Of a DNA stretch of 64,000 nucleotides, positions 33,424 through 59,479 are shown piece after piece. The notes beneath the pieces are model-generated. The model was not told the DNA's origin. It did no database searches and worked only from the letters and a program-made list of their open reading frames with translations. Positions within the stretch are counted from its first letter, which is position 1. Every line of letters begins with the position of its first letter. The position numbers and the translations under genes are program-made. This DNA comes from Ectobius pallidus (lineage: Eukaryota; Arthropoda; Insecta; Blattodea; Ectobiidae): the NCBI GenBank assembly GCA_964059195.1, contig CAXKWD010000009.1, positions 87,455,432 through 87,519,431 on the forward strand, given 5' to 3'.

Positions 33424-33979
33424 TACTTGGCGCCGCAACTTAAGGGGCTTCGACCAATTAATTACGCCAAGATATTCAGCAAGTGCTTCATACTTGGCGC
33501 GCCATCGTAAGGGGCTAAAAAAGAGAGACAGATATAGGGTATAAAACAAAGATTAAAATACTAGTAAATTACGCCAAGATATTCAGCAAGTGCTTCATAC
33601 TTAACGCCATCTTAAGGGTCCAAAAAGATAGACTTAAAGTACACCAAATATTCAGTAAGTGATTAATACTAGTGCTGCAACGGAACAGTATTCAAGTAAA
33701 GTCAGCTTAACTTTGTGAGGGATAAAATCAAGAGGAGAATTCAGCCGGAACAAAGAAACTTAGGAGCGGGCAGAACAAGAGAGAAGACCGCGGGAAAAAC
33801 AAGAAAATCTTTGTAATTTTAATTAATAAGAGGGTATTGTTTATGTCATTAGAAATAAGAGTGTTTATATGTATTTGCATGCAGTGTTATGTTGCTGATA
33901 TATGTATGTACAAAGGTAAGAGAGCATGATTTTTTTACTCAGTGAATTCCAGTGCAGTGAATAAGGTTAGGGCCAGGTT
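33424..33979 (+). promoter_or_regulatory. leader with primer-binding site and PBS-like repeats
   Basis: Four nt after the LTR, 33428 starts TGGCGCCGCAACTTAAGGG, a plausible primer-binding site (TGGCGCC complements a tRNA ending GGCGCCA, as lysine tRNAs do). The module 'cgccaagatattcagcaagt' plus 'gcttcatactt' and a PBS-like string recurs at about 33464-33518 and 33566-33617, with a weaker copy near 33640-33675. The copies include bases that mimic the LTR end. Which copy primes reverse transcription is not certain, but position favours the first. Confidence 0.7.
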
Positions 33980-39792: not shown

Positions 39793-40563
39793 GAAATAAG
39801 GGTATAACAGTATGACAACAGGCTTGCGTCATTTCGTAAGAAATAGGTATAGGGTTAAGTGTGATTTTACCTTGTAAGAATACATGATCGCGAATACCAC
39901 GTGTGATGTAAGCTTACAGTGGAATCTAAGTGTGTAATTATACAAGGACGAGCAGTAAATAAATCCACTGGCGAATATATATCAATGTTAATTATGTGTA
40001 TAAGTACGGACATACAGCAAATATATCCGCTGTTGCTCTATATCTCGTTATTTAATTTTTAATAAGGACGTCCACATAAATAAATCCAGTGGCGATTTAT
40101 CTAGTTAATATCTTAAGTAATAATGTTCATTCAGTGTTTATTCTGTTATTATTATATGTGTTGTTTCAATTTTGTTGTGTTTTGCATTAAAATCATAAAA
40201 GTTAATCTCTCCAGTAATATGACATAAGCATATGGTGTCATAGCGAAACAAAGCTTACAAATGTGCGAAGGGTGGTGTATGGATGCGAGATAAGATTGTA
40301 GTATGGTATGCAGCCTGACAAACCCGTACCAGGTACAAGGAATGCCAATACTTCATAACTGGTCAGTGAACCAAATAAAGGTTGAAATGAATGACAGTAC
40401 CCTGAAGCTCTGCTAGGCAATAGATAGGTCACTGTACTGGAAAGGTAAACATGAGCATTGTTATGTAAGGAGAGTAACAATAATTCAGGAGCAAAAAAGT
40501 ATTCCTGTCAAAAATGAATTTTGCTACAAAATACACTTTTTACAATAATAATTGTGGGCAGTA
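39793..40563 (+). other. non-coding region between pol and 3' LTR
   Basis: 770 bp without an env-like ORF, so the element encodes no envelope. The bases just before the 3' LTR ('attgtgggcagta') contain only a short G-rich run, so the polypurine tract is not obvious. Confidence 0.6.
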
Positions 40564-41807
40564 TGATAGGATCATAACCATGGATTAAACATGATTATAA
40601 TCAGAACAGATAACATACATTATTGAGCATATTAAATAAGATTAGATACATCAAAGCATTGATAGTATTACAATTAAAGGTTATAAGAAATAGATATTAA
40701 ATGATAATAATTCCAGTAATTAAATAAATAAATAATATTGTAGTAACATTGCAGTAAGTTAAATTTCAAGTTAGCAAAACTTCACATTATAACTCAGACG
40801 GAATTCAAGGAAAAACAGTGAGGGAAATACATTCTGCTATTCAACCACAGCAGGACACAAGAGACACTCATTGTAGAAAAGTGCACTTGTATTGTGACAA
40901 AAACTTACAGAATAGAACTCAAGAACAGTCAAAAGAAGGTACTAAGAATTTTGAGTGGGAATAATATTTTGTATAGATGTTCCAAGAATCCTTGGGCGAT
41001 AACGGGAACTGACTGAGCTGGGAAGCAATACTTCCTACTCGGAGCAGCATTGAGACGCTCAAATGAAGGTAACCAATGAGAGTACATCTCTCATTGCAAA
41101 ACAGGGTAAAATGCTCTAATAGTAGTTATTATTGGTTGTAGAAATAAGTGGAAAAAGATGACTTAAGGAACGAAGGACGCTGGAATGCACGTGAGAGACG
41201 AACACTTCTACGAGATCCCTTCACCGAGATAGTCGGTGCAGGACATTTTTCCTCGCTTCTTGGCTTCAAAGTGCCAAGTGAAGCACATTATATTTTATAA
41301 AGTCATAGTATCATATCAGGAGGATCCTGATACGGTACCAATAAATAATCATCAATAAGAACAGTTTGTAATAGGAATTGCGGTAGAACTAAATTACAGT
41401 TACTACCAAAGTAAATTCAGTGACACGTAAGTACTTGTGTTCGACGAAGCAAATTACAGACAGTATTAACACGTAACAATTGTACGTCATTACTACATAA
41501 AATCCTCGATAGTAACTTCAATATTACGAGCGTTCTATCGTCCAGACATTCCGAACTCTTCACCCAATTTTCAAGTGATTAATTGCTGAAAACATTATTG
41601 AACAGAAATAAAACCTAATCATACCAGTAATCTTTTTTGACATTATTACTAGTATATCTATTGAACGAATAACCCTAAATCCCCCCAGATAAGATAGAGA
41701 CACTCTGTTGCATCCACTGAGCTACCGTGGTCGGTCGTTTTGTGGTTCCCAGACACATCCTGGATAGTTAAAAGTAAGGGCTAAAAACCACACGGCGAAC
41801 CGTTTCA
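40564..41807 (+). repeat. 3' LTR of the Ty3/gypsy-type element (1244 bp)
   Basis: Same start, end and length as the 5' LTR, followed by TCAG. Confidence 0.95.
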
Positions 41808-41811
41808 TCAG
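41808..41811. repeat. 4-bp target-site duplication, right (TCAG)
   Basis: Copy of 32176-32179. With the element removed, the mariner sequence is continuous. Confidence 0.9.
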
Positions 41812-43640: not shown

Positions 43641-43803
43641 GATAGTATTATAGGAGAAAAATTCCTCCGACACTGGGACTTGAACCCAGGACCTATGGCT
43701 ATTCGCGCCAATGCTCTACCAACTGAGCTAAGCCGGAGTTCAATTCACAGCGCCAGATGGAACCTTCCCCCTGTCGGAGGAATTTTTCTCCTATAATACT
43801 ATC
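43641..43803. repeat. foldback unit: tRNA-like gene inside 32-bp perfect inverted repeats
   Basis: 43641-43672 ('gatagtattataggagaa' onward) is exactly complementary to 43772-43803. The repeats partly overlap the acceptor stem of the tRNA-like sequence at 43665-43738. The arrangement looks like a small mobile or foldback unit built on a tRNA. Confidence 0.85.
43665..43738 (-). tRNA. tRNA-like sequence, possible tRNA-Phe(GAA) or pseudogene
   Basis: The minus strand folds as a tRNA. The acceptor CTCCGGC pairs with GTCGGAG, the D arm is 'gctcagttggtagagc', and the anticodon stem TGGC/GCCA has loop GCGAATA (centre GAA). The T arm includes 'ctgggttcaagtcccag', and the B box is intact. The anticodon stem is only 4 bp before a mismatch, and the locus sits in a foldback repeat, so a tRNA-derived repeat is more likely than a working tRNA gene. 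Confidence 0.5.
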
Positions 43804-44246
43804 ACTATTTACACATACCTACAAAATAATACTTTTTTTTTAATTTGACCGTTAAAGGTGTGCTCAACAAACACAGAAGTCAACAGTAAGAAAAGCCTAC
43901 ATTCTTGTGTTTTATACGAATTCTAAATTATTTAGGTTTGAATTGTATGGTTAATGTTTCGTCCTACCACATTAAATATAAATGAACATAGACACACTGG
44001 TTTATTGTCATACTGTGTATAATTTTGACGCGCAAATGTTTTTATTTATTTAAGTAACTTGTCGGAGTTAAGGCCATAAGGCCTTCACTATCCCTCAGCC
44101 AGAGCAAAAACATGAAATATATAATAATAATAAATTAAAACAAGAAATTATATTTTTAATATCTGTGTTGTGGGGGAGGGGGTCGCTTCCTAAAACCGTT
44201 TATACGTCAAGTCTGGAAAATGGATGCAGAAATAACTTCCTTAGTA
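43804..44246. other. no gene; short repeat fragment at 44039-44110
   Basis: 'gtcggagttaaggccataag' with a T-rich lead resembles 18640-18690. The rest is unassigned. Confidence 0.4.
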
Positions 44247-44252
44247 GGCTTA
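44247..44252. repeat. 6-bp target-site duplication, left (GGCTTA)
   Basis: GGCTTA abuts the first base of the palindrome and recurs at 59474-59479 just beyond its last base. Confidence 0.88.
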
Positions 44253-44995
44253 AGTAGTATGGTTTTCCCACCTACGTCACAGGAGGATTGACAGGAGGAT
44301 TGATGACGTCACAGATCACGTGACAGGAGGGGAGGGAGGATTGATGACGTCACAAGTGGGCGTGGCCTATGACGTCACAAGTGGGCGTGGCTATGACGTC
44401 AGTGGCGGATTGTATGACGTCACAAGTGGGCGTGGCAATAACCACGTGATTCAAAATGGCGTCGGTTCCGGTTCCTATTGCAAATGGCGGCGGTTCCGGT
44501 TCCGGGGCGTACGAAGCGCGAAATTTAAAATTTGAAAATTAATAATATAAATGGCGTCCGTTCCGGTTCCTATTTCAAATGGCGTACGAAGCGCGAAATT
44601 CAAAATTTGAGAATTTATAATGTAATTGGTTACGTTTCCGGCGCGAAATTCAAAATTTGGAAATTTATAATGAAAATGGCTACGTTTCCGGTTCCTATTT
44701 CAGGTGGGCGGATGGCGGTTGATTTGAAAATTGCAAAAGGTGGAAATTGAATATTACAATTGCAAATAGCGGATGGTGGGAAATTTGAAATTTGTATATT
44801 GGTATTGTTTTACAATATGGCAGCATCGCTTACGTCAGAGGAGGATTAGAGGAGGATTGCTATGACCTTCCTCAACCGTGGAATGTTTTATGACGTCATC
44901 GCTTACGTCAGAGGAGGATTGAGAGGAGGATTAATGACGTCATCGCTTACGTCACAGGAGGATTGACAGGAGGATTGATGACGTCACAGCAGATT
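44253..44995 (+). promoter_or_regulatory. subterminal region with eight TGACGTCA sites, left arm
   Basis: Eight perfect CRE/ATF-type palindromes (TGACGTCA) lie in about 740 bp, near 44304, 44345, 44370, 44393, 44416, 44891, 44936 and 44978. Also present are two CACGTG boxes, three copies of GTGGGCGTGGC (GC/GT box), repeated CCGGTTCC, and recurring 'aggaggattg'. A block 'acaggaggattgacaggagg' appears both at the terminus and at about 44957. About 0.01 TGACGTCA would be expected by chance. It looks like a compact enhancer or replication-end region, as in the terminal repeats of some DNA viruses. The function is inferred. Confidence 0.75.
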
Positions 44996-45082
44996 TTAAT
45001 CTTTATGTCTTTTTAGCATGGAAGCATATAGATCACGAAGCGTAAATACGTCATATTCCTACACATAGGTTTTCTGTAAGAT

Positions 45083-45139
45083 GTTTATTTCACTATGGTC
45101 CTGGGATCGACTCAACCTGGATACCTAAGGCTGTTAACC

Positions 45140-45176
<37 letters not shown>

Positions 45177-45385
45177 CAGACGCAGTTGGAAATGTAGAGA
45201 AGCGTTTTTTTATACCTTCAAGTATTTTTTTTATAATTATATTTCACATACAGTTTTTTCCGTAAGATGTCTACTTATCTAAAAAATAGCCCTGAGGTCA
45301 ACTCAGCCTAGGTTTACCGATTAGCGTTTAATTTTTACTTTGGTCCTATGGTAAAGGCGGCCGGTGCGTAAAACTCATGCTAGGG
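45083..45385 (+). repeat. SINE family F fragments inside the left arm
   Basis: 'ctatggtcctgggatcgact' at 45093 and 'cctgaggtcaactcagcc' plus 'ggcggccggtgcgtaaa' at 45291-45374 match the family F SINE body at 21570-21660. A (TTA)n tract lies between them. They are mirrored at 58341-58643. Confidence 0.65.
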
Positions 45386-46032
45386 TCTTTAGAGGGGATA
45401 TATTATGATAATAATTACAGGATTTTATAATGTCGATACAGAAAGCCAGTGAATGTTTAATCATATGCGTGCAGTGATTTTGCTTAGGTAGCAGTAGTAT
45501 CATCTAGCCCTCCATACATGTTATCTCTCTTACTATGCAGCGGTAATATAACGCTGTACGCTTATCGCTATCTTACAACGTCATTCATTGAGACTTCCTT
45601 TTAAATCCCAACTCTATCATATTATAAAGTCGCAGGCCAGTACTTTTAAATATTAAATCCTTAATCATAGCACATGTCTTATGTAGTATTAGTCAACAGT
45701 ATTTTTATTGCGGAATATTGTAATATTTCATCGCAGAGTGGTAGTGAACTTATTTTGTAATATTCCATCACTGAGTGGTTCTGAGTTCGATTCAAAGTCA
45801 GTAAAGGCATATTCAGCTTTTCTCACATTGCGGGAAATTGAATATACTGTTTCAGAAAAGCGCTGATAAGAAATAAATATCAAATAACGCTTTAACGTAT
45901 ATTTCTCCCAGTGTTTCATCTCTGATGGAACCTTATATTAATAATGTAGTTTGATACAGAGTATATCAGCATTTATTGCATGAAAATTAATATTTTATTT
46001 CCGTACTAGAATTAAATATCGGATATCTGTTG

Positions 46033-46263
46033 ATGTCACCAGAAATGAATATTTTTCGCATACGACATCGATTTAATGTGGGAAATCATGAACAGGTATT
46101 TTCACAAGCAGGAAACGCGAAATATGTAATTACTGATGATTTAAGCTGTAACGTATATTTACCAAGTCGTGAGGCTAGTCAGCATTTTTTAAACTCCAAT
46201 CATGTCATTGGTGTAAAATATATTTGTCCTGTTGCGAGCCTATTTCAAAGCATCATTATATAA
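46033..46263 (+). CDS. small ORF, left arm, unknown
   Basis: A 76-aa ORF from ATG 46033, ending 80 bp before the start of the two-exon gene. It has two cysteines separated by about 30 residues with two histidines between them (D-L-S-C ... H-F-L-N-S-N-H ... Y-I-C-P), which might bind zinc. No family was recognised. It is exactly conserved in the other arm, but so is everything there, so conservation says nothing about coding. Confidence 0.3.
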   Translation: MSPEMNIFRIRHRFNVGNHEQVFSQAGNAKYVITDDLSCNVYLPSREASQHFLNSNHVIGVKYICPVASLFQSIII

Positions 46264-46343
46264 TCCAAGAACACGCATCGATAGTCTTAATCATACTTGT
46301 ATATGTAACGATTGTGAATATTCTCATTCTATAAAACTTCGCC

Positions 46344-47551
46344 ATGGCACCTATCCATAACAACCATCACTTGTACGAGATCCCAGATCAGGTGTTTATC
46401 ATACCTGATGAGGAACCACCAACACTACCAACGCAGCCTAACCCTCCAGAGTTCTTTAACATTAAGTTGTACAACGTAGAGGGACATCACACCGCTGATT
46501 TAGAGTTTGGTGTGATTTCGGTAAGAATATACAGCGTGGACCACAGCCCCGAGACATCTGTACTTCTACCATGTGGGAACACTCATTTTGAGAGTGCAGG
46601 GGATGATGTGACACACATTCAGGCCCACCACGATGAGGTCTGCGATGGACAACAACATTTTCACCGCTGTCGAACCACCAAAGATGGCTTCTTCAGCACA
46701 TGGTCGTGGCGTTGCAGCCAGAGCTGTCCTCTGTTCGAGAGGTTCCAAAAAGCTGTAAGTACTAATATCATTACTCATTACATTTATTGTAAAACCCGTT
46801 CTTACTATGTCCAGTTAAGTAGGAGTAAATGTTTGGATAAGTTTATAGTACGAGATGTTTTCAAATGACGTTATTAGCTCTTACCATAACTTATTAAAAT
46901 ACATTATATATATAGGCTTATATATTTTATATATTACGCTTATTATTCAATTCCTGTTAAAATCTAAAAGTTAAACTATTTTCTAAAGAATGACGAAGAA
47001 TGAAATCCTCCTCAAGTAAAGTGTTTGTAAAAAATGAAAAGAAAGTTACAACGTTTCTAACCTCACCCCCCGAAGGATAAAAAACCCAAATATAATCTGA
47101 TGTACGTGTAGAGGAAGTAAACAGTAAATTAAGTAACTGTTCAAACTTTCATAATAGTTCGATCTAGTTTTCATTAGATTTTTTATCTTTTTACTTATAT
47201 TGATATTGTTCTTCATCACCATTATCATTATGGAAGAAGCTATCTAATTTTACATCTACACTTTAATTCAGTTCGCGAGAAGTATAACCTCGAAAAATCC
47301 CTCGTTAGAAGTTTACATGTGCATTTTCCTATAGTAAAGATTACTCTCAGTTAAGAGATTTTTACCAACAGTTATCGCCTAACCAAATATTACAAAATCG
47401 AACTATCAACAAAGTAATCGTAAAAGTAACCATAATTATTTTACTGGAGGTGGTAATAACGGTCCTTAATATCATAACATATTGCTTATAGTGTTTATAT
47501 TTTTTTCAGATGACGGAAGCCTTCTTCAACGATGGCCACTGCAGCCAGTGA
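46344..47551 (+). CDS. two-exon gene, 150 aa, unknown function, left arm
   Basis: Exon 1 runs from an ATG in a strong context (GCCATGG) to 46754, where 'aaagct' meets the consensus donor 'gtaagtac'. Exon 2 starts at 47510 after 'tttatatttttttcag' and ends with TGA at 47551. An AATAAA follows at 47609-47614. Exon 1 is 137 codons, so the join is in phase 0, giving 150 aa. The N-terminal part is Pro/Glu-rich ('PDEEPPTLPTQPNPPEF'). The C-terminal third is Cys/His-rich, with C at P-C-G, D-E-V-C, H-R-C, W-R-C, Q-S-C and G-H-C, suggesting metal binding or disulphides. TATAAAA at 46330 is close to the ATG. No family recognised. The mirror copy is at 56175-57382. Confidence 0.6.
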
Positions 47552-47614
47552 ACTGTACATCATCCACTAATATATATTGGGTCATGTTTAAAACTTTGTA
47601 GTAATACAAATAAA

Positions 47615-49690
47615 TATCTAGTCAGAACAAAATCTGTGTCAGCCACAAGTAATTGAAACCAGAGCTATATTTCTATCCTGATATTATTTCTTCATACTTC
47701 CTTTTTGTTTCAAAAGTATTACTCTTTACACATTTCCACCACTAAATCAATATTCTATGTCTTCCGAGGCATACTCGTTAATGTATTAAAGTCATAGAGT
47801 TTTATCTAATTTTCAACATGTATAAATTATTATCTTAACTTATTACTACTATTTTCCTTCATTTTTTTTATTGTTATCACAAAATTTACAGCCAAGTGAG
47901 GTACTCTTCACTTTCCGCTTTTCCTATATTATATCACATGCTTTATTTATTTATTTATTTATTTATTCAAAATCTTAACATCAGTAGAGTAAGAAGTAAA
48001 ATATGTATTATAAAGAAATCTTTTTCGTTACAACTTCAACAGAATTTTTTCATCTCATAATGTATGCAAAAGTTCAGTCACATCCTTAAATTATATACCA
48101 AATTCATTTCCCTCATTACATAACCTTCCATCAAGATGATTATTTATTTATCAAGTCATCAAATATCAAAAAAGTTAAAAAATCTATTTAAATAATTATA
48201 ATCATTGAATTTTAGCTAATTTGTGACATCATATGTGAAATATTTTTCTTAGCTTCTGGTAATATGCACATTATATTTTATGTATCAAATGATTATGCAA
48301 ATATCAGAGTCAAGAAAATAACATACATCTTCTAGCATATAGAGAGTAAGTTTCACAACGCAAAACGTACACGTGAGAAGGTGTTGATTAGTCAGCAAAG
48401 TATATCAGGATCCAAGTCTCTATACCGTACACCTTCATTAAGGAAAAAAGATATCGCGTATAATTTTCATAATAAGCATTTATATTTTGCATGCTTTTTC
48501 CCTAACGTCCTGATTATAATATTCAATTAGATATAAGTTACCATAGCTATGTTATCAATACAATGTTGAGGTTCAGGTTTTACATCTGCTTCATGTATGA
48601 AACTTGGAAATAAGACTTAGATAACGCATAAATTTCATAACCTGTTCATGTTTCGCGACACCTAATAGTTATTGGTAATATTGTTTTAAATTTAAAGTCA
48701 TTGCCTAAGTTCTCATCATTACTTAAAATACATTTGAACTCAACCAGTCTTAGACCCATATTTTATAAACACTTGACACAAGTAACATTTTTACGAGATC
48801 TTTATCATAATTTACAGATCACCTAAACATCTCCATTTTGCTTCAAAGTGATGTTCTTTACGTATTTCTTTTATAATGTGGTACCATCTCCTTAGTATGC
48901 AAAATGTCATAGATTTTTACCTAGTTTGCACCATCATGTTTGAATTAGTTTCTTAGCTTTCCACCGATGTTTAACTGAACCTATACAATAGTCCATCAAT
49001 TTTTTCTTTTTATCATACAACCTACCTAATTATCCTCACAAAATGAGGTTATTACCAAGTTAACATACATTTTTTATATAATACATCACAAGTTTAGCTT
49101 TTAAAGATAATATGCTTAAGTTCTCACCATTACTTAAAATGCCTTTGAACTCTACATGTTCATCATTCCAGTCTTAGACCTAATATTTTAAATGCACTTG
49201 AAACAAATATAATTTTTTACGAGATCTTTATCATAATTTACAGAGCACCTAATAGTTATTTGTAATATTGTTTCAAATTTAAAGTCATTGTATCCGTTAG
49301 TCTTCACAATATTTCATTTTACTTTTTCGGTTATGGTCGTTCTATATATTACATTTTCTACTTTAGTTCTACTATTGAGGCTTCTTTGACAATGGCAATT
49401 ACTTACTTTATCTCATTATAACATATAATAAGAAACCTTATTTTTAGGTAGTAAAGAAGAGGAAGACCTAAATGAATGAATAAAACCAAAGTGATAAAAG
49501 CACAATCTTTTGTAAGTTAATTCGTAACTAGATTTTCTCACGTTTAACAAAGTCCAGTTTTCCATAACCTCTCCTATTCATATTTCCTAGGACGAGGGAC
49601 TGTTAAATAAAAAACACATCTCAGGATTATAGAATTTTATTCATTTTATTACATTCATACTAGGATTTCATACACAACGTAAGTACATTA
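47615..49690. other. AT-rich non-coding part of left arm with internal repeats
   Basis: No ORF above chance. Contains an (ATTT)n tract near 47942 and about 460-bp-spaced repeats (mirror of those described at 54430-55075). Confidence 0.5.
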
Positions 49691-49695
49691 ACATT

Positions 49696-49944
49696 TCACA
49701 ATGTGCATTTCATATTAGACTCATTATGAAAAAGTAATCTGGTTTCACAGTCTCTTAATTCGTCAAGCTTTGGAACACTAAGATCGTTCATGTTTATAAC
49801 AGATCTCTGCAAAAGTTTACAATGAAGAACATCTACACTTTCAAGAACAGGCTTAAAATCATCGTAGTATAAGTATCCCTCTACCACAGAACTATATGGA
49901 TGTAAGATTCGATGTGCTACAACTTTACATCTAGGTAAATGTGT
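49696..49944 (-). CDS. terminal exon candidate downstream of the integrase-like gene, left arm
   Basis: An open minus-strand stretch of about 82 codons without an upstream ATG ends in N-M-K-C-T-L-stop and is followed within about 60 nt by an AATAAA string. It contains Y-L-Y-Y-D-D-F and repeated Cys/His residues (R-C-K, V-L-H-C-K, R-D-C). An acceptor-like 'atttacctag' lies near its open start. It may be a second exon of the integrase-like transcript or a separate small gene. Unknown family. Mirror at 53782-54030. Confidence 0.35.
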   Translation of the reverse strand, partial: THLPRCKVVAHRILHPYSSVVEGYLYYDDFKPVLESVDVLHCKLLQRSVINMNDLSVPKLDELRDCETRLLFHNESNMKCTL

Positions 49945-50138
49945 TTATGCAGTCAGAGAACAAAATGTACATTTCTACCATCCACCGATGTAAACATGAT
50001 AAAATCGCTTCTCTTAAGTAGAGAGTGGGAAGGTTTTTGATAGTACGACTCTTACATTCCAGTTTATAAAGTATTCAATACGCTCCAATCTTACTGTTTA
50101 CGATCGAGTCATTGTTTGAAACTCTTACGTAATCGTAG

Positions 50139-51005
50139 TCATTCTATGATTTTTCTCCCCCGCAATTCAGATATGATTTCTTGTATCTCGCTGTGATGAG
50201 AATAATTCCCTACCGCAGATGAGGACAAAAGTAAACGTAATCTGTCAATGAGCTCATTCGGATCAGGCCAGTATTTATAATCACATTTACGATTCGTATG
50301 TACTTCTCCTGTATGATGCGACGAAGCCTCGTTGGAAGAGTCGAAATCTTGTTCTTCTTTTTTAACATCATCTTGTTCTTCCTCTTCTTGTTCTTCTTCT
50401 TCCTCTTCCGTATCCTCTTCAGGAAATAGTTGTTTACTCATATGATTGTATTTTTGCGTATCGAATCTACATACTTTTTTAACGATGGGGTAAGCATGGT
50501 GACCGGTGTTCGTATACAAGTCAGGAATTCGATCGGAAACGGTTTTCTGTTTGTTATTAGTCATCCTTTCACGACAAATTGAGCACATGGATAGATATAG
50601 AGATATCATATACTGTGTAACGTTTGCAAATTTTCTAGATAGTTCAATATACATTTTATCTCGACCACAATGTCCTATTGCTGTATGGGTGGTATCAATA
50701 ACGTCGTATATTTCGTCAGCAGAAAGGTAACATTTTATATTAGTATCGCCATCGGTTTTTGCAACAAGTTTCCTCATTCCTCCTAATTCTGATACATCAA
50801 ATCTTTTCAATCTTCTTTTCTGTATAGCTGTCTTATATTTTGCTTTTTTAGCATCATCCACCTCTCGCATGAGTGAAAAGTATTTTTCCTTTGTTAGAAC
50901 ATTAAAATGAGAAGATATTTCACTCTTAGTTCTTAAAAGCTCAACCATGAATCTCTCTCTACATTTGTTTTTAGTTTTGTTACAAATTGGCCAACTCTCA
51001 TCCAT
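50139..51005 (-). CDS. integrase-type HHCC zinc-finger protein lacking DDE core, left arm
   Basis: 288 aa. A basic, helical N-terminal part (about 35-70, ending K-R-R-L-K-R-F-D-V) leads into an H107-x4-H112-x28-C141-x2-C144 finger in the context T-T-H-T-A-I-G-H-C-G-R. This is the integrase zinc-binding domain seen in Polinton, Ginger and KRBA2-like proteins. In intact integrases a catalytic D-D-E core follows; here it is absent. Instead come a linker, an acidic tract (about 196-220) encoded by (GAA)n-like DNA, and a tail with Y-W-P-D-P-N-E-L. That tail looks like a separate module, and I have an unverified memory of it in other arthropod mobile-element ORFs. It may bind the element ends or act as a regulator, but cannot catalyse integration alone. 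Mirror at 52721-53587. Confidence 0.75.
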   Translation of the reverse strand: MDESWPICNKTKNKCRERFMVELLRTKSEISSHFNVLTKEKYFSLMREVDDAKKAKYKTAIQKRRLKRFDVSELGGMRKLVAKTDGDTNIKCYLSADEIYDVIDTTHTAIGHCGRDKMYIELSRKFANVTQYMISLYLSMCSICRERMTNNKQKTVSDRIPDLYTNTGHHAYPIVKKVCRFDTQKYNHMSKQLFPEEDTEEEEEEQEEEEQDDVKKEEQDFDSSNEASSHHTGEVHTNRKCDYKYWPDPNELIDRLRLLLSSSAVGNYSHHSEIQEIISELRGRKIIE

Positions 51006-51106
51006 GATAAGAAGAAACGTAGAATGATACTAAATGCAAGTCACCAATTATGTATATTGTTGTTCACAGCATAGCATTGAATGTCCTATTGTTGTATGGG
51101 TGGTAT

Positions 51107-51320
51107 CTAGTCAGAACTAGTCTTAACTGACTTTTTCTAGTTAGATCTAGTCTTAACTGACTTTTTTCTAGTTAGAACTAGTCTTAACTGACTTTTTCTA
51201 GTTAGATCTAGTCTTAACCGACTTTTTTCTAGTTAGAACTAGTCTTAACTGACTTTTTTCTAGCTAGAACTAGTCTTAACTGACTTTTTTCTAGTTAGAA
51301 CTAGTCTTAACTGACTTTTG
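51107..51320 (+). repeat. tandem 30-31-bp repeats, left arm
   Basis: Seven copies of 'tcttaactgactttttt' alternate with 'ctagttagaactag' (itself palindromic) or the variant 'ctagttagatctag'. The array lies just upstream of the integrase-like start codon (51005, minus strand), so it may be a promoter array or replication iterons. Mirror at 52406-52619. Confidence 0.9.
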
Positions 51321-51488
51321 TTTTCTCACCTTAACAGCTTGACGGTTGAACAGCAACTAATTGTATTTGACATACATCAATTATTTATTGGTAAAACTCG
51401 TGACGTCTAACAAGAAAGATCATTTTGATCATAACTCGCATAATACTTGTTGAATAATGAACCCGTTGGTCTTTCCGGAATTACTAGG

Positions 51489-51490
<2 letters not shown>

Positions 51491-51524
<34 letters not shown>
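51491..51524. repeat. (CA)17 microsatellite, left arm
   Basis: Seventeen CA units against eighteen TG units in the right arm. Confidence 0.95.
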
Positions 51525-51525
<1 letters not shown>

Positions 51526-51606
51526 CAAATACGCATCATCCACGAAGCAATCTCATAAAAGAAGTCTTAACACCGATAAGATTAAAAAGGATTATATCCA
51601 AAACAC

Positions 51607-51840
51607 TAAGTTATGTTAGGTTAGGCTAGATTAGGTTAGGCTAGGTTAGGTTAGGTTAGCATAGGTTAGGTTAGCAGGATGATATTTTAAAATTATTTCT
51701 ACATTAATGAAAATTCTAAGTTAGGTTAGGTAGATTATGTTGGGTTAGGTTAGGTTATGGAAGGTTAGGTTATGTTAGGTTAGGTTAGGTTATGATAGGT
51801 TACGTTAGGTTAGCAGGACGATATTTTAAAATTATTTCTA
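51607..51840 (+). repeat. degenerate TTAGG arrays, left of centre
   Basis: Two blocks (about 51612-51675 and 51718-51813) of TTAGG/TTATG/CTAGG pentamers. Each is followed by 'agcaggaygatattttaaaa' (y = t/c). TTAGG is the common insect telomere repeat. The reading direction is toward the centre of the palindrome. Confidence 0.85.
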
Positions 51841-51852
51841 GAAACATTGATA

Positions 51853-51878
51853 AAATGTGCCAAGGAACTTAGCCTTTC
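51853..51878. other. central spacer of the palindrome
   Basis: A 26-nt unpaired spacer between 'gaaacattgata' and 'tatcaatg'. Next to it the arms differ by a 4-nt insertion ('gaaa') on the left, one A/G substitution, and 3 extra nt on the left near 51820. Confidence 0.85.
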
Positions 51879-51886
51879 TATCAATG

Positions 51887-52117
51887 TAGAAATGATTTTA
51901 AAATATCCTGCTAACCTAACGTAACCTATCATAACCTAACCTAACCTAACATAACCTAACCTTCCATAACCTAACCTAACCCAACATAATCTACCTAACC
52001 TAACTTAGAATTTTCATTAATGTAGAAATAATTTTAAAATATCATCCTGCTAACCTAACCTATGCTAACCTAACCTAACCTAGCCTAACCTAATCTAGCC
52101 TAACCTAACATAACTTA
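51887..52117 (-). repeat. degenerate CCTAA arrays, right of centre
   Basis: Mirror of 51607-51840. With the left side it gives the order (TTAGG)n-centre-(CCTAA)n. Confidence 0.85.
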
Positions 52118-52198
52118 GTGTTTTGGATATAATCCTTTTTAATCTTATCGGTGTTAAGACTTCTTTTATGAGATTGCTTCGTGGATGATGCGTATTTG

Positions 52199-52199
<1 letters not shown>

Positions 52200-52235
<36 letters not shown>
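52200..52235. repeat. (TG)18 microsatellite, right arm
   Basis: One unit longer than its left-arm partner, accounting for the 2-nt shift in mirror coordinates. Confidence 0.95.
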
Positions 52236-52237
<2 letters not shown>

Positions 52238-52405
52238 CCTAGTAATTCCGGAAAGACCAACGGGTTCATTATTCAACAAGTATTATGCGAGTTATGATCA
52301 AAATGATCTTTCTTGTTAGACGTCACGAGTTTTACCAATAAATAATTGATGTATGTCAAATACAATTAGTTGCTGTTCAACCGTCAAGCTGTTAAGGTGA
52401 GAAAA

Positions 52406-52619
52406 CAAAAGTCAGTTAAGACTAGTTCTAACTAGAAAAAAGTCAGTTAAGACTAGTTCTAGCTAGAAAAAAGTCAGTTAAGACTAGTTCTAACTAGAAA
52501 AAAGTCGGTTAAGACTAGATCTAACTAGAAAAAGTCAGTTAAGACTAGTTCTAACTAGAAAAAAGTCAGTTAAGACTAGATCTAACTAGAAAAAGTCAGT
52601 TAAGACTAGTTCTGACTAG
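52406..52619 (-). repeat. tandem 30-31-bp repeats, right arm
   Basis: Mirror of 51107-51320, 100 bp upstream of the right-arm integrase-like ORF. Confidence 0.9.
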
Positions 52620-52720
52620 ATACCACCCATACAACAATAGGACATTCAATGCTATGCTGTGAACAACAATATACATAATTGGTGACTTGCATTTAGTATC
52701 ATTCTACGTTTCTTCTTATC

Positions 52721-53587
52721 ATGGATGAGAGTTGGCCAATTTGTAACAAAACTAAAAACAAATGTAGAGAGAGATTCATGGTTGAGCTTTTAAGAACTAA
52801 GAGTGAAATATCTTCTCATTTTAATGTTCTAACAAAGGAAAAATACTTTTCACTCATGCGAGAGGTGGATGATGCTAAAAAAGCAAAATATAAGACAGCT
52901 ATACAGAAAAGAAGATTGAAAAGATTTGATGTATCAGAATTAGGAGGAATGAGGAAACTTGTTGCAAAAACCGATGGCGATACTAATATAAAATGTTACC
53001 TTTCTGCTGACGAAATATACGACGTTATTGATACCACCCATACAGCAATAGGACATTGTGGTCGAGATAAAATGTATATTGAACTATCTAGAAAATTTGC
53101 AAACGTTACACAGTATATGATATCTCTATATCTATCCATGTGCTCAATTTGTCGTGAAAGGATGACTAATAACAAACAGAAAACCGTTTCCGATCGAATT
53201 CCTGACTTGTATACGAACACCGGTCACCATGCTTACCCCATCGTTAAAAAAGTATGTAGATTCGATACGCAAAAATACAATCATATGAGTAAACAACTAT
53301 TTCCTGAAGAGGATACGGAAGAGGAAGAAGAAGAACAAGAAGAGGAAGAACAAGATGATGTTAAAAAAGAAGAACAAGATTTCGACTCTTCCAACGAGGC
53401 TTCGTCGCATCATACAGGAGAAGTACATACGAATCGTAAATGTGATTATAAATACTGGCCTGATCCGAATGAGCTCATTGACAGATTACGTTTACTTTTG
53501 TCCTCATCTGCGGTAGGGAATTATTCTCATCACAGCGAGATACAAGAAATCATATCTGAATTGCGGGGGAGAAAAATCATAGAATGA
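52721..53587 (+). CDS. integrase-type HHCC zinc-finger protein lacking DDE core, right arm
   Basis: Identical 288-aa protein to the left-arm copy. The two genes diverge from the centre, start codons facing each other across about 1.7 kb. The start is chosen at the ATG following 'tttcttcttatc'; the methionine leads directly into the N-terminal part. The H-x4-H-x28-C-x2-C finger is intact and no catalytic core follows. The DNA for H107-H112 is partly duplicated upstream at 52619-52646. Confidence 0.75.
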   Translation: MDESWPICNKTKNKCRERFMVELLRTKSEISSHFNVLTKEKYFSLMREVDDAKKAKYKTAIQKRRLKRFDVSELGGMRKLVAKTDGDTNIKCYLSADEIYDVIDTTHTAIGHCGRDKMYIELSRKFANVTQYMISLYLSMCSICRERMTNNKQKTVSDRIPDLYTNTGHHAYPIVKKVCRFDTQKYNHMSKQLFPEEDTEEEEEEQEEEEQDDVKKEEQDFDSSNEASSHHTGEVHTNRKCDYKYWPDPNELIDRLRLLLSSSAVGNYSHHSEIQEIISELRGRKIIE

Positions 53588-53781
53588 CTACGATTACGTA
53601 AGAGTTTCAAACAATGACTCGATCGTAAACAGTAAGATTGGAGCGTATTGAATACTTTATAAACTGGAATGTAAGAGTCGTACTATCAAAAACCTTCCCA
53701 CTCTCTACTTAAGAGAAGCGATTTTATCATGTTTACATCGGTGGATGGTAGAAATGTACATTTTGTTCTCTGACTGCATAA

Positions 53782-54030
53782 ACACATTTACCTAGATGTA
53801 AAGTTGTAGCACATCGAATCTTACATCCATATAGTTCTGTGGTAGAGGGATACTTATACTACGATGATTTTAAGCCTGTTCTTGAAAGTGTAGATGTTCT
53901 TCATTGTAAACTTTTGCAGAGATCTGTTATAAACATGAACGATCTTAGTGTTCCAAAGCTTGACGAATTAAGAGACTGTGAAACCAGATTACTTTTTCAT
54001 AATGAGTCTAATATGAAATGCACATTGTGA
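53782..54030 (+). CDS. terminal exon candidate, right arm
   Basis: Mirror of 49696-49944. The open frame follows a TAA at 53779-53781, lacks an ATG before N-M-N-D-L, and ends at TGA 54028-54030. AATAAA occurs near 54082. It lies 194 bp beyond the stop of the integrase-like ORF on the same strand, so a shared transcript is likely. Confidence 0.35.
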   Translation, partial: THLPRCKVVAHRILHPYSSVVEGYLYYDDFKPVLESVDVLHCKLLQRSVINMNDLSVPKLDELRDCETRLLFHNESNMKCTL

Positions 54031-54035
54031 AATGT

Positions 54036-56110
54036 TAATGTACTTACGTTGTGTATGAAATCCTAGTATGAATGTAATAAAATGAATAAAATTCTATAAT
54101 CCTGAGATGTGTTTTTTATTTAACAGTCCCTCGTCCTAGGAAATATGAATAGGAGAGGTTATGGAAAACTGGACTTTGTTAAACGTGAGAAAATCTAGTT
54201 ACGAATTAACTTACAAAAGATTGTGCTTTTATCACTTTGGTTTTATTCATTCATTTAGGTCTTCCTCTTCTTTACTACCTAAAAATAAGGTTTCTTATTA
54301 TATGTTATAATGAGATAAAGTAAGTAATTGCCATTGTCAAAGAAGCCTCAATAGTAGAACTAAAGTAGAAAATGTAATATATAGAACGACCATAACCGAA
54401 AAAGTAAAATGAAATATTGTGAAGACTAACGGATACAATGACTTTAAATTTGAAACAATATTACAAATAACTATTAGGTGCTCTGTAAATTATGATAAAG
54501 ATCTCGTAAAAAATTATATTTGTTTCAAGTGCATTTAAAATATTAGGTCTAAGACTGGAATGATGAACATGTAGAGTTCAAAGGCATTTTAAGTAATGGT
54601 GAGAACTTAAGCATATTATCTTTAAAAGCTAAACTTGTGATGTATTATATAAAAAATGTATGTTAACTTGGTAATAACCTCATTTTGTGAGGATAATTAG
54701 GTAGGTTGTATGATAAAAAGAAAAAATTGATGGACTATTGTATAGGTTCAGTTAAACATCGGTGGAAAGCTAAGAAACTAATTCAAACATGATGGTGCAA
54801 ACTAGGTAAAAATCTATGACATTTTGCATACTAAGGAGATGGTACCACATTATAAAAGAAATACGTAAAGAACATCACTTTGAAGCAAAATGGAGATGTT
54901 TAGGTGATCTGTAAATTATGATAAAGATCTCGTAAAAATGTTACTTGTGTCAAGTGTTTATAAAATATGGGTCTAAGACTGGTTGAGTTCAAATGTATTT
55001 TAAGTAATGATGAGAACTTAGGCAATGACTTTAAATTTAAAACAATATTACCAATAACTATTAGGTGTCGCGAAACATGAACAGGTTATGAAATTTATGC
55101 GTTATCTAAGTCTTATTTCCAAGTTTCATACATGAAGCAGATGTAAAACCTGAACCTCAACATTGTATTGATAACATAGCTATGGTAACTTATATCTAAT
55201 TGAATATTATAATCAGGACGTTAGGGAAAAAGCATGCAAAATATAAATGCTTATTATGAAAATTATACGCGATATCTTTTTTCCTTAATGAAGGTGTACG
55301 GTATAGAGACTTGGATCCTGATATACTTTGCTGACTAATCAACACCTTCTCACGTGTACGTTTTGCGTTGTGAAACTTACTCTCTATATGCTAGAAGATG
55401 TATGTTATTTTCTTGACTCTGATATTTGCATAATCATTTGATACATAAAATATAATGTGCATATTACCAGAAGCTAAGAAAAATATTTCACATATGATGT
55501 CACAAATTAGCTAAAATTCAATGATTATAATTATTTAAATAGATTTTTTAACTTTTTTGATATTTGATGACTTGATAAATAAATAATCATCTTGATGGAA
55601 GGTTATGTAATGAGGGAAATGAATTTGGTATATAATTTAAGGATGTGACTGAACTTTTGCATACATTATGAGATGAAAAAATTCTGTTGAAGTTGTAACG
55701 AAAAAGATTTCTTTATAATACATATTTTACTTCTTACTCTACTGATGTTAAGATTTTGAATAAATAAATAAATAAATAAATAAAGCATGTGATATAATAT
55801 AGGAAAAGCGGAAAGTGAAGAGTACCTCACTTGGCTGTAAATTTTGTGATAACAATAAAAAAAATGAAGGAAAATAGTAGTAATAAGTTAAGATAATAAT
55901 TTATACATGTTGAAAATTAGATAAAACTCTATGACTTTAATACATTAACGAGTATGCCTCGGAAGACATAGAATATTGATTTAGTGGTGGAAATGTGTAA
56001 AGAGTAATACTTTTGAAACAAAAAGGAAGTATGAAGAAATAATATCAGGATAGAAATATAGCTCTGGTTTCAATTACTTGTGGCTGACACAGATTTTGTT
56101 CTGACTAGAT
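54036..56110. other. AT-rich non-coding part of right arm with diverged internal repeats
   Basis: The order 'aactattaggtg', 'ctgtaaattatgataaag', 'atctcgtaaaaa', 'gtctaagactgg', 'ttttaagtaatg', 'gagaactta' occurs at 54468-54610 and again at 54893-55020. A third partial copy is at 55021-55070. No ORF above chance. Confidence 0.7.
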
Positions 56111-56174
56111 ATTTATTTGTATTACTACAAAGTTTTAAACATGACCCAATATATATTAGTGGATGATGTACAGT

Positions 56175-57382
56175 TCACTGGCTGCAGTGGCCATCGTTGA
56201 AGAAGGCTTCCGTCATCTGAAAAAAATATAAACACTATAAGCAATATGTTATGATATTAAGGACCGTTATTACCACCTCCAGTAAAATAATTATGGTTAC
56301 TTTTACGATTACTTTGTTGATAGTTCGATTTTGTAATATTTGGTTAGGCGATAACTGTTGGTAAAAATCTCTTAACTGAGAGTAATCTTTACTATAGGAA
56401 AATGCACATGTAAACTTCTAACGAGGGATTTTTCGAGGTTATACTTCTCGCGAACTGAATTAAAGTGTAGATGTAAAATTAGATAGCTTCTTCCATAATG
56501 ATAATGGTGATGAAGAACAATATCAATATAAGTAAAAAGATAAAAAATCTAATGAAAACTAGATCGAACTATTATGAAAGTTTGAACAGTTACTTAATTT
56601 ACTGTTTACTTCCTCTACACGTACATCAGATTATATTTGGGTTTTTTATCCTTCGGGGGGTGAGGTTAGAAACGTTGTAACTTTCTTTTCATTTTTTACA
56701 AACACTTTACTTGAGGAGGATTTCATTCTTCGTCATTCTTTAGAAAATAGTTTAACTTTTAGATTTTAACAGGAATTGAATAATAAGCGTAATATATAAA
56801 ATATATAAGCCTATATATATAATGTATTTTAATAAGTTATGGTAAGAGCTAATAACGTCATTTGAAAACATCTCGTACTATAAACTTATCCAAACATTTA
56901 CTCCTACTTAACTGGACATAGTAAGAACGGGTTTTACAATAAATGTAATGAGTAATGATATTAGTACTTACAGCTTTTTGGAACCTCTCGAACAGAGGAC
57001 AGCTCTGGCTGCAACGCCACGACCATGTGCTGAAGAAGCCATCTTTGGTGGTTCGACAGCGGTGAAAATGTTGTTGTCCATCGCAGACCTCATCGTGGTG
57101 GGCCTGAATGTGTGTCACATCATCCCCTGCACTCTCAAAATGAGTGTTCCCACATGGTAGAAGTACAGATGTCTCGGGGCTGTGGTCCACGCTGTATATT
57201 CTTACCGAAATCACACCAAACTCTAAATCAGCGGTGTGATGTCCCTCTACGTTGTACAACTTAATGTTAAAGAACTCTGGAGGGTTAGGCTGCGTTGGTA
57301 GTGTTGGTGGTTCCTCATCAGGTATGATAAACACCTGATCTGGGATCTCGTACAAGTGATGGTTGTTATGGATAGGTGCCAT
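56175..57382 (-). CDS. two-exon gene, 150 aa, unknown function, right arm
   Basis: Exact mirror of 46344-47551: exon 1 57382-56972, intron, exon 2 56216-56175 with stop. Same splice signals and protein. The polyadenylation-type AATAAA mirrors at 56112-56117. Two identical copies could double the dose or simply reflect the palindrome. Confidence 0.6.
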
Positions 57383-57462
57383 GGCGAAGTTTTATAGAAT
57401 GAGAATATTCACAATCGTTACATATACAAGTATGATTAAGACTATCGATGCGTGTTCTTGGA

Positions 57463-57693
57463 TTATATAATGATGCTTTGAAATAGGCTCGCAACAGGAC
57501 AAATATATTTTACACCAATGACATGATTGGAGTTTAAAAAATGCTGACTAGCCTCACGACTTGGTAAATATACGTTACAGCTTAAATCATCAGTAATTAC
57601 ATATTTCGCGTTTCCTGCTTGTGAAAATACCTGTTCATGATTTCCCACATTAAATCGATGTCGTATGCGAAAAATATTCATTTCTGGTGACAT
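57463..57693 (-). CDS. small ORF, right arm, unknown
   Basis: Mirror of 46033-46263; same caveats. Confidence 0.3.
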   Translation of the reverse strand: MSPEMNIFRIRHRFNVGNHEQVFSQAGNAKYVITDDLSCNVYLPSREASQHFLNSNHVIGVKYICPVASLFQSIII

Positions 57694-58340
57694 CAACAGA
57701 TATCCGATATTTAATTCTAGTACGGAAATAAAATATTAATTTTCATGCAATAAATGCTGATATACTCTGTATCAAACTACATTATTAATATAAGGTTCCA
57801 TCAGAGATGAAACACTGGGAGAAATATACGTTAAAGCGTTATTTGATATTTATTTCTTATCAGCGCTTTTCTGAAACAGTATATTCAATTTCCCGCAATG
57901 TGAGAAAAGCTGAATATGCCTTTACTGACTTTGAATCGAACTCAGAACCACTCAGTGATGGAATATTACAAAATAAGTTCACTACCACTCTGCGATGAAA
58001 TATTACAATATTCCGCAATAAAAATACTGTTGACTAATACTACATAAGACATGTGCTATGATTAAGGATTTAATATTTAAAAGTACTGGCCTGCGACTTT
58101 ATAATATGATAGAGTTGGGATTTAAAAGGAAGTCTCAATGAATGACGTTGTAAGATAGCGATAAGCGTACAGCGTTATATTACCGCTGCATAGTAAGAGA
58201 GATAACATGTATGGAGGGCTAGATGATACTACTGCTACCTAAGCAAAATCACTGCACGCATATGATTAAACATTCACTGGCTTTCTGTATCGACATTATA
58301 AAATCCTGTAATTATTATCATAATATATCCCCTCTAAAGA

Positions 58341-58549
58341 CCCTAGCATGAGTTTTACGCACCGGCCGCCTTTACCATAGGACCAAAGTAAAAATTAAAC
58401 GCTAATCGGTAAACCTAGGCTGAGTTGACCTCAGGGCTATTTTTTAGATAAGTAGACATCTTACGGAAAAAACTGTATGTGAAATATAATTATAAAAAAA
58501 ATACTTGAAGGTATAAAAAAACGCTTCTCTACATTTCCAACTGCGTCTG

Positions 58550-58586
<37 letters not shown>

Positions 58587-58643
58587 GGTTAACAGCCTTA
58601 GGTATCCAGGTTGAGTCGATCCCAGGACCATAGTGAAATAAAC
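58341..58643 (-). repeat. SINE family F fragments inside the right arm
   Basis: Mirror of 45083-45385. Confidence 0.65.
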
Positions 58644-58730
58644 ATCTTACAGAAAACCTATGTGTAGGAATATGACGTATTTACGCTTCGTGATCTATAT
58701 GCTTCCATGCTAAAAAGACATAAAGATTAA

Positions 58731-59473
58731 AATCTGCTGTGACGTCATCAATCCTCCTGTCAATCCTCCTGTGACGTAAGCGATGACGTCATTAATCCTC
58801 CTCTCAATCCTCCTCTGACGTAAGCGATGACGTCATAAAACATTCCACGGTTGAGGAAGGTCATAGCAATCCTCCTCTAATCCTCCTCTGACGTAAGCGA
58901 TGCTGCCATATTGTAAAACAATACCAATATACAAATTTCAAATTTCCCACCATCCGCTATTTGCAATTGTAATATTCAATTTCCACCTTTTGCAATTTTC
59001 AAATCAACCGCCATCCGCCCACCTGAAATAGGAACCGGAAACGTAGCCATTTTCATTATAAATTTCCAAATTTTGAATTTCGCGCCGGAAACGTAACCAA
59101 TTACATTATAAATTCTCAAATTTTGAATTTCGCGCTTCGTACGCCATTTGAAATAGGAACCGGAACGGACGCCATTTATATTATTAATTTTCAAATTTTA
59201 AATTTCGCGCTTCGTACGCCCCGGAACCGGAACCGCCGCCATTTGCAATAGGAACCGGAACCGACGCCATTTTGAATCACGTGGTTATTGCCACGCCCAC
59301 TTGTGACGTCATACAATCCGCCACTGACGTCATAGCCACGCCCACTTGTGACGTCATAGGCCACGCCCACTTGTGACGTCATCAATCCTCCCTCCCCTCC
59401 TGTCACGTGATCTGTGACGTCATCAATCCTCCTGTCAATCCTCCTGTGACGTAGGTGGGAAAACCATACTACT
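58731..59473 (-). promoter_or_regulatory. subterminal region with eight TGACGTCA sites, right arm
   Basis: Mirror of 44253-44995. An apparent 125-codon minus-strand ORF starting at 59568 crosses the element boundary and is discarded. Confidence 0.75.
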
Positions 59474-59479
59474 GGCTTA
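59474..59479. repeat. 6-bp target-site duplication, right (GGCTTA)
   Basis: Copy of 44247-44252. Sequence beyond it ('ttccaagttttgactac') is unrelated to the left flank, as expected for a single insertion. Confidence 0.88.

Follow-up and report, generated by a model that had tools for sequence, protein, structure and literature searches.

A palindromic Polinton-like element in the genome of Ectobius pallidus and a multicopy family sharing its imperfect centre

Polinton or Maverick elements are placed in the class Polintoviricetes, and their replication has so far been inferred mainly from gene content. Hairpin and duplex derivatives of linear plasmids, which keep one end of the protein-primed parent, are extrachromosomal and strain-specific; a 'hairpin plasmid' derivative of a linear plasmid was reportedly described by Kikuchi in 1985, and a derivative of the kalilo linear plasmid of the duplex deletion type is said to have been described by Vierula and Bertrand in 1992. 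The genome ends of parvoviruses and poxviruses carry a mismatched stem-loop, which joins one strand to the other and is maintained when the genome replicates, and the replication of adeno-associated virus (AAV) proceeds without protein priming. Strand-displacement replication primed by a terminal protein forms the basis of the replication inferred for Polintons (PMC6431247, PMC11071308). In vertebrate Mavericks the terminal repeats have a published range of 46-1,447 bp, the commonest end signature is (AGT)2//(ACT)2 and the target duplications are of 6 bp (PMC8097293). Polinton integrases are described as being without an N-terminal zinc finger, and Ginger transposons as having 4-5 bp duplications and TGTNR ends (PMC2836005). 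AAV snapback genomes are self-complementary half-genomes that replicate with helper functions (PMC8235507), incomplete adenovirus particles contain left-end DNA (PMC5033970), and in yeast diverged inverted repeats in long single strands fold back to give inverted duplications (PMC10164571). The subject of the present analysis is a 15,221-bp palindromic element at positions 44253-59473 of a 64,000-nucleotide stretch of the Ectobius pallidus genome, hereafter referred to as the window. No palindromic Polinton family was found in the titles and abstract openings among the matches listed from the open-licence literature, to which the search was confined, the subscription literature being outside its scope.

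It is probable, on the evidence given below, that the window element is a copy of a palindromic, Polinton-derived lineage that was founded by a fold-back event and whose arms have since been rewritten via the central hairpin. The genome searched comprises 2,124,618,226 bases in 410 contigs, the window being C9:87455432-87519431; L-numbers denote fetched genome loci and C-numbers denote contigs. The principal parts of the element are as follows.

44247-44252, 6 bp: left copy of the target-site duplication, GGCTTA
44253-51852, plus strand, 7,600 bp: left arm
44253-44990, plus strand, outer 738 bp: left terminal-repeat block, starting with AGTAGTATGG
51819-51852, plus strand: left-hand strand of the imperfect stem at the centre (copy B of the repeat)
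51853-51878, 26 nt: spacer, the loop of the central hairpin
51879-51905, plus strand: right-hand strand of the imperfect stem at the centre (copy C of the repeat, in inverted orientation); outward of it the arms are identical
51879-59473, minus strand, 7,595 bp: right arm
58736-59473, minus strand: right terminal-repeat block, the mirror of the left one, ending with CCATACTACT
59474-59479, 6 bp: right copy of the target-site duplication, GGCTTA

The sequence-only reading had described two near-perfect reverse-complementary arms around a short spacer, GGCTTA immediately outside both ends and unrelated outer flanks, and each of these statements was borne out. All of the 7,534 positions compared between the arms are identical (0 substitutions), the identity being uninterrupted for 7,272 bases from the left end, and the sole difference outside the centre is (CA)17 at 51491-51524 against (CA)18 at 52200-52235. 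The best match between the two flanks is 18 nt long (E 0.69). The element begins with AGTAGT (44253) and terminates with ACTACT (59468); the ten-base ends AGTAGTATGG and CCATACTACT occur once each within 44-60 kb, at the two termini, and no terminal motif was found at the palindrome centre in the same interval. A palindrome of such size cannot be due to chance. With a mutation rate of 3e-9 per site and generation, the absence of differences in 2 x 7,534 sites places the last rewriting of the arms at most about 66,000 generations ago, an upper bound that assumes joint rewriting and no later conversion.

The arms are imperfect only in the last ~34 nt adjoining the spacer, which contain a 3-nt indel, a 4-nt indel and one substitution. 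The 99-nt centre, folded as a single strand, yields -22.6 kcal/mol against -5.95 +/- 2.17 kcal/mol for shuffled sequences (z -7.7). Three related repeat copies are found at the centre, namely A (approximately 51675-51722), B in the left stem and C, inverted, in the right stem. As C aligns better with A (score 54, ungapped over 42 nt and reaching into the loop) than with its partner B (score 44), it looks like a pre-existing inverted copy and not a decayed mirror of B; the extension of the C-A alignment into the loop is modestly significant, being equalled in 214 of 5,000 shuffles. If synthesis was primed by fold-back, the turn should consist of an imperfect inverted repeat and the copies beyond it should be perfect, which is the arrangement observed here around the loop, and the snap-back origin suggested from the sequence alone is thereby supported. 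When 8 distinct 120-nt centres are compared, more variation is seen in the left stem (B) than in the right one (C), a contrast that may indicate the primer strand. Telomerase healing was considered as the origin of the centre's TTAGG-like tracts, which are of a kind suggestive of an arthropod, and was given up because they are degenerate and interrupted.

The sequence-only reading described a single element; its structure stands, and the element is not a one-off. A 44-nt core of the centre, allowing up to 2 mismatches, occurs at 269 places in the genome (137 + 132) and the reversed pattern at none; the 131-bp centre matched at 100% in all 40 places scored (40 of 555 candidates). A one-off defective genome, entertained as an explanation, was dropped after these results. 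Palindromes about the centre were found in 16 of 18 fetched centre loci. These comprise all ten best-match loci, nine of them palindromic for more than 1 kb where 1.5 kb per side was in view and the tenth (L045) over 613 bp and continuing farther outward, with a tandem expansion in one arm, and six of eight further loci, which were hand-picked, not at random, from among the matches listed. L058 and L060 are palindromes outside the 18 counted. In the stretches seen, arms of the window type are present in L043, L046, L047 and L050 and are shared in part only by L041, L042 and L049, while L048 has little in common with the window beyond the centre and a diverged terminal stretch. Centre copies in the same orientation also lie close together, 116 bp apart at C1:206685963 and C1:206686079, and roughly 10-16 kb apart at C1:193226798/193236365, C5:121682021/121698298, C4:140005092/140018633 and C3:62108287/62118914; such pairs may be palindromes in tandem or nested in one another.

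Other copies with the same termini, which the sequence-only reading had proposed should be sought, are present in the source genome. The terminal block (44253-44990) has at least 45 matches (40 of 1,266 candidates scored), and 30 terminal-block loci resolve into 11 facing-end pairs (22 loci, the window's included) with 8 loci unpaired. The 6 bases outside both ends match in all 11 pairs, and the eleven 6-mers are mutually different. Sequence inside the terminal block is shared by both ends for at least 1.27 kb in six pairs; in the other five, the ends share only 37 bp beyond the 738-bp block and the elements are asymmetric. The window's centre lies midway in four of the six like-ended pairs, these being the window element, L012/L011 (centre L050), L021/L020 and L028/L029; L004/L003, at 27.6 kb, has a different centre, and L014/L013 has a terminal repeat of about 2 kb and a middle without the window's centre. 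One end is of the window's arm type in all five asymmetric pairs, and the terminal block is identical, or nearly so, across palindromic and asymmetric elements. A 3-kb middle piece of the asymmetric element on C2, the one covered by the integrase scan, contains an rve integrase core that passes the cut-off (PF00665, E=5.8e-14) and a chromodomain that narrowly misses its own. The asymmetric elements sharing the terminal block are taken here as probable Polinton-type relatives. The description of the window element as a non-autonomous Polinton-like derivative gains from the end motif, the 6-bp duplication and the asymmetric elements with the same ends, one of them with rve; the retroviral-type integrase associated with such elements is not found in the window copy itself. 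The same terminal block with an identical 15-nt outer flank occurs at both C388:322844 and C4:4130365, probably an unmerged haplotype.

The same-centre palindrome of L048 is a 15,741-bp element (C6:18894255-18909995) with ACCGTG on both sides, an arm identity of 99.8% and the first 14 bases of the window element. Each of its arms carries an identical intact ORF of 1,182 codons, which is 98% identical to a 609-codon frame of the asymmetric C2 piece and contains the words KGVFPYDY and DTDS, which we take to resemble Polinton polymerases and which no profile confirms. The ORF has a weak match to endonuclease VII (E = 1.5e-4, below the cut-off), and its best match in the PDB is a chain named THR5 (E = 0.0011). 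It gave no tblastn match to ten PF03175 loci of the genome and a profile-comparison probability of 3%. The ORF is a candidate, unconfirmed polymerase. The single-sequence structure models of the analysis reached a pLDDT of 41 and 33 and were too poor to use. No rve match was obtained in 4 of the 10 listed frames of at least 100 aa in one arm piece of this element. A second abundant polymerase-bearing group is also present in the genome, with at least 151 PF03175 matches (75 of 1,704 candidates scored) and open frames of up to 1,515 codons.

Palindromes with other centres are also present. The L004/L003 element (C10:44341825-44369464) is flanked by a matching duplication, CCGGGT, and its two ends agree completely over 1,500 bp inward of the terminal blocks; a mid-arm sample (the arm having been read in part) is alike at 98.7% over 2 kb, and an 823-bp perfect inverted repeat encloses a 2.35-kb spacer. 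Another, at C5:54847074-54862484, has 1,997 bp identical inside both ends and 865-bp perfect arms with a 1.63-kb spacer; its junction is complex and lies in sequence akin to the 1,182-codon gene. With at least two palindromes having other centres, fold-back probably occurred more than once.

The evidence for rewriting of the arms comes from comparison within and between elements sharing the window's centre, made beyond 60 nt from the centre and leaving out L045, in which the tandem expansion spoils the alignment. Within elements, no substitution was found in 1,506 positions of L041, L042, L043, L047, L049, L050 or the window, nor in 1,237 of L044; L046 has 5 and L048 has 4. Against the four elements that have its arms, the window shows 9 differences for L043, 13 for L046, 10 for L047 and 6 for L050 in 1,465-1,485 positions. 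Arms thus agree better within an element than between elements. Simple divergence since a common founder predicts within-element differences at least as numerous as those between elements and fewer were observed, which points to copying between arms. The stem has remained asymmetric throughout: in all 17 copies used for the stem check (of 21 centre copies; L045, L058 with a core that is not exact, L068 and L073 were left out), the 40 nt nearest the loop contain 12-13 difference columns and the 460 beyond them 0-16. The process that rewrites the arms seems to halt at the same place beside the loop.

The lineage would have been founded during strand-displacement replication from a terminus, presumably protein-primed, when a 3' end turned back on itself at B/C, with the 26-nt loop between them, and was extended along its own strand as far as the terminus, giving a linear palindrome with two identical ends. 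With both ends carrying the terminal repeat used in replication and integration, the dimer could replicate and could integrate as a unit with a 6-bp duplication; the termini and duplications are seen directly, and the enzymes are inferred to recognise the terminal repeat. In later rounds the central hairpin would prime synthesis again, or a full-length hairpin form would be repaired, one arm being rewritten from the other and the loop and imperfect stem handed on unchanged. Integrase would be supplied in trans, probably by asymmetric Polintons with the same ends. Extension of C on B in each cycle would be the simplest route to near-perfect arms, an unrepaired stem and a fixed boundary, with hairpin repair and chromosomal gene conversion as the alternatives to it.

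Several observations weigh against this account. The evidence consists of integrated sequence, from which the hairpin form and its replication are deduced, and protein priming is borrowed from the Polinton family; arm-to-arm gene conversion in the chromosome would likewise keep the arms alike. Two of the 18 centre loci are not clean palindromes (L068 is one-armed and L073 rearranged), and the one-arm expansion in L045 shows arms not fully in step. In six further palindromes, for which the within-versus-between comparison is partial, arm identity is 96-99% in the best stretch, centre included, and in a second stretch of L072 it is 88%; the in-step pattern is clearest in young copies, and the best-match copies are the youngest-looking. 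Of the 17 copies in the stem check, ten were selected for the stem, nine (L041-L044 and L046-L050) by a whole-stem query and the window as the query itself. The other seven (L060, L066, L067, L069-L072), of which L060 was retrieved with the terminal block and the rest with the 44-nt core, are unselected in this respect because the core's own 9-bp stem is perfect and sits inside the asymmetric part; with stem persistence unselected in only 7 of 17 copies, confidence is lowered. The centre is absent from the middle pieces, the sole parts viewed, of three asymmetric elements (L051, L052 and L057). The right end of the C5:54847074 palindrome is without the end motif, and no matching duplication is visible there. 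Neither Pfam nor PHROGs identifies the 1,182-codon ORF as a polymerase, and a profile comparison with other PolBs of this genome does not do so either. Finally, the H2C2-finger frame of the window arms, described below, is no evidence for a Polinton origin because Polinton integrases are reported without an N-terminal zinc finger (PMC2836005).

An alternative is that the palindromes formed once and then spread as ordinary non-autonomous elements, gene conversion between arms in the chromosome having kept them alike and no hairpin replication having taken place. Conversion of this kind is known from large chromosomal palindromes and fits near-identical arms within elements that differ among themselves; it has to contend with the difference columns within 40 nt of the loop, which survive in all 17 copies, the seven unselected ones among them, despite near-identical arms next to them. 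This explanation is considered unlikely, and its odds overlap those of the preferred account because the founding step is the same in both. Recurrent formation, in which an asymmetric Polinton carries B, loop and C internally and each palindrome arises afresh by fold-back at that point, is held to be somewhat less likely still. The palindromes with other centres show that fold-back palindromes have arisen more than once, the arms differ among same-centre palindromes, and the one-armed L068 could be a parent of the required kind; the three asymmetric middle pieces without the centre argue against it, as does the palindromic state of 16 of the 18 centre loci. That two ordinary elements were inserted head to head, or that the window holds a normal element with very long terminal repeats, is most improbable: terminal repeats do vary in length, as the ~2-kb repeat of L014/L013 illustrates, and this explanation is already contradicted by the structure of the centre, where no terminal motif is present and the arms reach the stem beside a 26-nt loop shared at 269 places. 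An assembly or library artefact, in which a hairpin or chimeric read produces a false inverted copy, would typically leave perfect arms such as these and is nevertheless very unlikely, the least credible of the four, because the same 6-bp duplication borders both ends between unrelated flanks, the centre recurs in palindromes at many loci with other flanks and, in some, other arms, and four with checked ends (L012/L011, L021/L020, L028/L029 and the C6 element) have matching 6-bp duplications of their own.

Within the favoured account of fold-back founding and hairpin-mediated rewriting, a more specific proposal may be put forward tentatively, at somewhat less than even odds. The working genome of a stable self-complementary Polinton lineage would be a half-size linear hairpin of ~7.6-7.9 kb, bearing a terminal protein at one end and closed by an imperfect hairpin at the other; the conserved centre would prime its own synthesis in each cycle, and integration would take place as a palindromic dimer. 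If so, each cycle would rewrite one arm from the other and hold the two identical, so that a change or an acquired gene in one arm would appear in both, and at least one form with the same centre would carry a large gene, possibly for replication, in duplicate.

The remaining contents of the arms of the window element are as follows.

46344-47551, plus strand: predicted two-exon gene of 150 aa (exon 1 46344-46754, GT..AG intron, exon 2 47510-47551)
50139-51029, minus strand: H2C2-finger open frame of 296 codons
51106-51319, plus strand: 31-bp tandem repeat, 7 copies, mirrored at 52407-52620
51491-51524, plus strand: (CA)17, with 18 units in the mirror at 52200-52235
51610-51813, plus strand: two degenerate (TTAGG)n-like tracts, one at 51610-51674 and one at 51720-51813, with mirror counterparts in the right arm
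52697-53587, plus strand: mirror copy of the H2C2-finger frame by arm identity, the ATG-initiated part being 52721-53587
56175-57382, minus strand: mirrored two-exon gene, located through the identity of the arms

The terminal block has a GC content above that of the remaining arm and contains 8 TGACGTCA sites, whereas no such site occurs elsewhere in the arm; no relatives of the block were found in the other viral and genome contigs scanned. The predicted two-exon gene is followed by AATAAA about 60 bp past the stop codon and, inward along the arm, by AT-rich sequence, and its exon-1 frame has no match in Pfam or NCBIfam. The two copies of the H2C2-finger frame point away from the centre. At 296 codons, this frame exceeds the longest (201) in 300 dinucleotide shuffles of the arm. 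It matches the integrase zinc-binding domain PF17921 weakly (E=0.0032, 18 bits, below the cut-off of 25.5) and shows 30% identity over 80 residues to the matching part of the Ty3/gypsy polyprotein in the window (E=3e-4, single comparison); no integrase core was found in it, and a search of the PDB returned no integrase and two weak matches to histone demethylase. A 317-bp segment of this gene region (50115-50431) is 91.8% like mid-element stretches of two asymmetric elements (L052:2309-2616 and L057:2080-2387), and on account of this likeness the cargo gene may derive from the parental Polinton.

For the gene scan, 22 of the 24 stop-to-stop pieces of at least 60 aa overlapping 44000-52000 were searched with Pfam. 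No polymerase, integrase core, packaging ATPase, protease or capsid was found over the cut-off in these pieces, and one match to a viral minor capsid model, in a TTA-repeat frame, is at chance level (E = 0.1). Comparison of the arm proteins with PHROGs and NCBIfam gave nothing significant (best E 0.92 and 0.14). In viral contigs, no relatives of the two arm proteins were identified; 231 and three stretches with the peptide patterns were obtained, none of them confirmed. On this evidence the window copy would not be autonomous and would consist, in coding terms, of two small candidate cargo genes.

Other features of the window lie outside the palindrome. A Ty3/gypsy-type LTR (long terminal repeat) retrotransposon occupies 32180-41808, with LTRs of 1,245 bp that are 100% identical (32180-33424 and 40564-41808), a gag-like ORF of 729 codons and a pol ORF of 1,220 codons; it is very young, and its apparent 4-bp duplication, judged by eye, is TCAG. 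A tRNA-Phe (GAA) gene is located at 43664-43738 on the minus strand, ~510 bp outside the left end of the palindrome, and a 314-bp unit occurs in two tandem copies, 89% alike, at 1242-1869.

In a palindromic lineage of many copies that share a hairpin and have arms kept in step, fold-back replication would have left its record in the genome, and sequence alone would suffice to test whether Polintons replicate by protein priming and integrate as dimers. Such a lineage would also show that a type of defective genome that is a by-product in adenoviruses, parvoviruses and linear plasmids can become an inherited transposon family. Such a family would naturally supply an animal genome with large perfect palindromes and might be a source of double-stranded RNA as well, and the palindromic elements may act as a parasite of, or a brake on, their parent elements.

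In comparison with the known systems, the window element resembles Polintons/Mavericks in its 6-bp duplication GGCTTA, in its ends, 5'-(AGT)2//(ACT)2-3', in sharing these ends with an integrase-bearing element of the same genome (the integrase having been seen in one such element), and in a size within the range of 12.7-24.6 kb given for vertebrate elements (PMC8097293). It differs from them in an inverted repeat of ~7.6 kb, half of the element, against 46-1,447 bp, and in its gene content: in the pieces scanned, the window copy has no recognisable protein-primed family B polymerase, rve integrase, or packaging ATPase, protease or capsid gene above the cut-off, and the 1,182-codon ORF of the same-centre C6 element has no PolB match. 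Its ends, its duplication and the shared sequence mark the window element as a Polinton derivative, and in gene content and in the length of its terminal repeats it falls outside the definition of a complete Polinton. Its 6-bp duplication and AGTAGT ends set it apart from the Ginger transposons. Foldback (FB/Galileo-type) DNA transposons also have very long inverted repeats, and they belong to another transposase superfamily and have other duplication lengths than a Polinton-type element. The hairpin ends of parvoviruses and poxviruses are ends of genomes, whereas the hairpin here is known solely as the centre of an integrated palindrome. With the linear-plasmid derivatives, the element has in common the hairpin or palindromic form of a linear replicon, and it differs from them as a genomic lineage with 269 centre copies and integration duplications; AAV snapback genomes and incomplete adenoviruses are by-products of infection, in contrast to the inherited and multiplying genomic family described here. 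By analogy, the element would work like the palindromic derivatives of linear plasmids and the snapback genomes of small DNA viruses, but as an inherited family.

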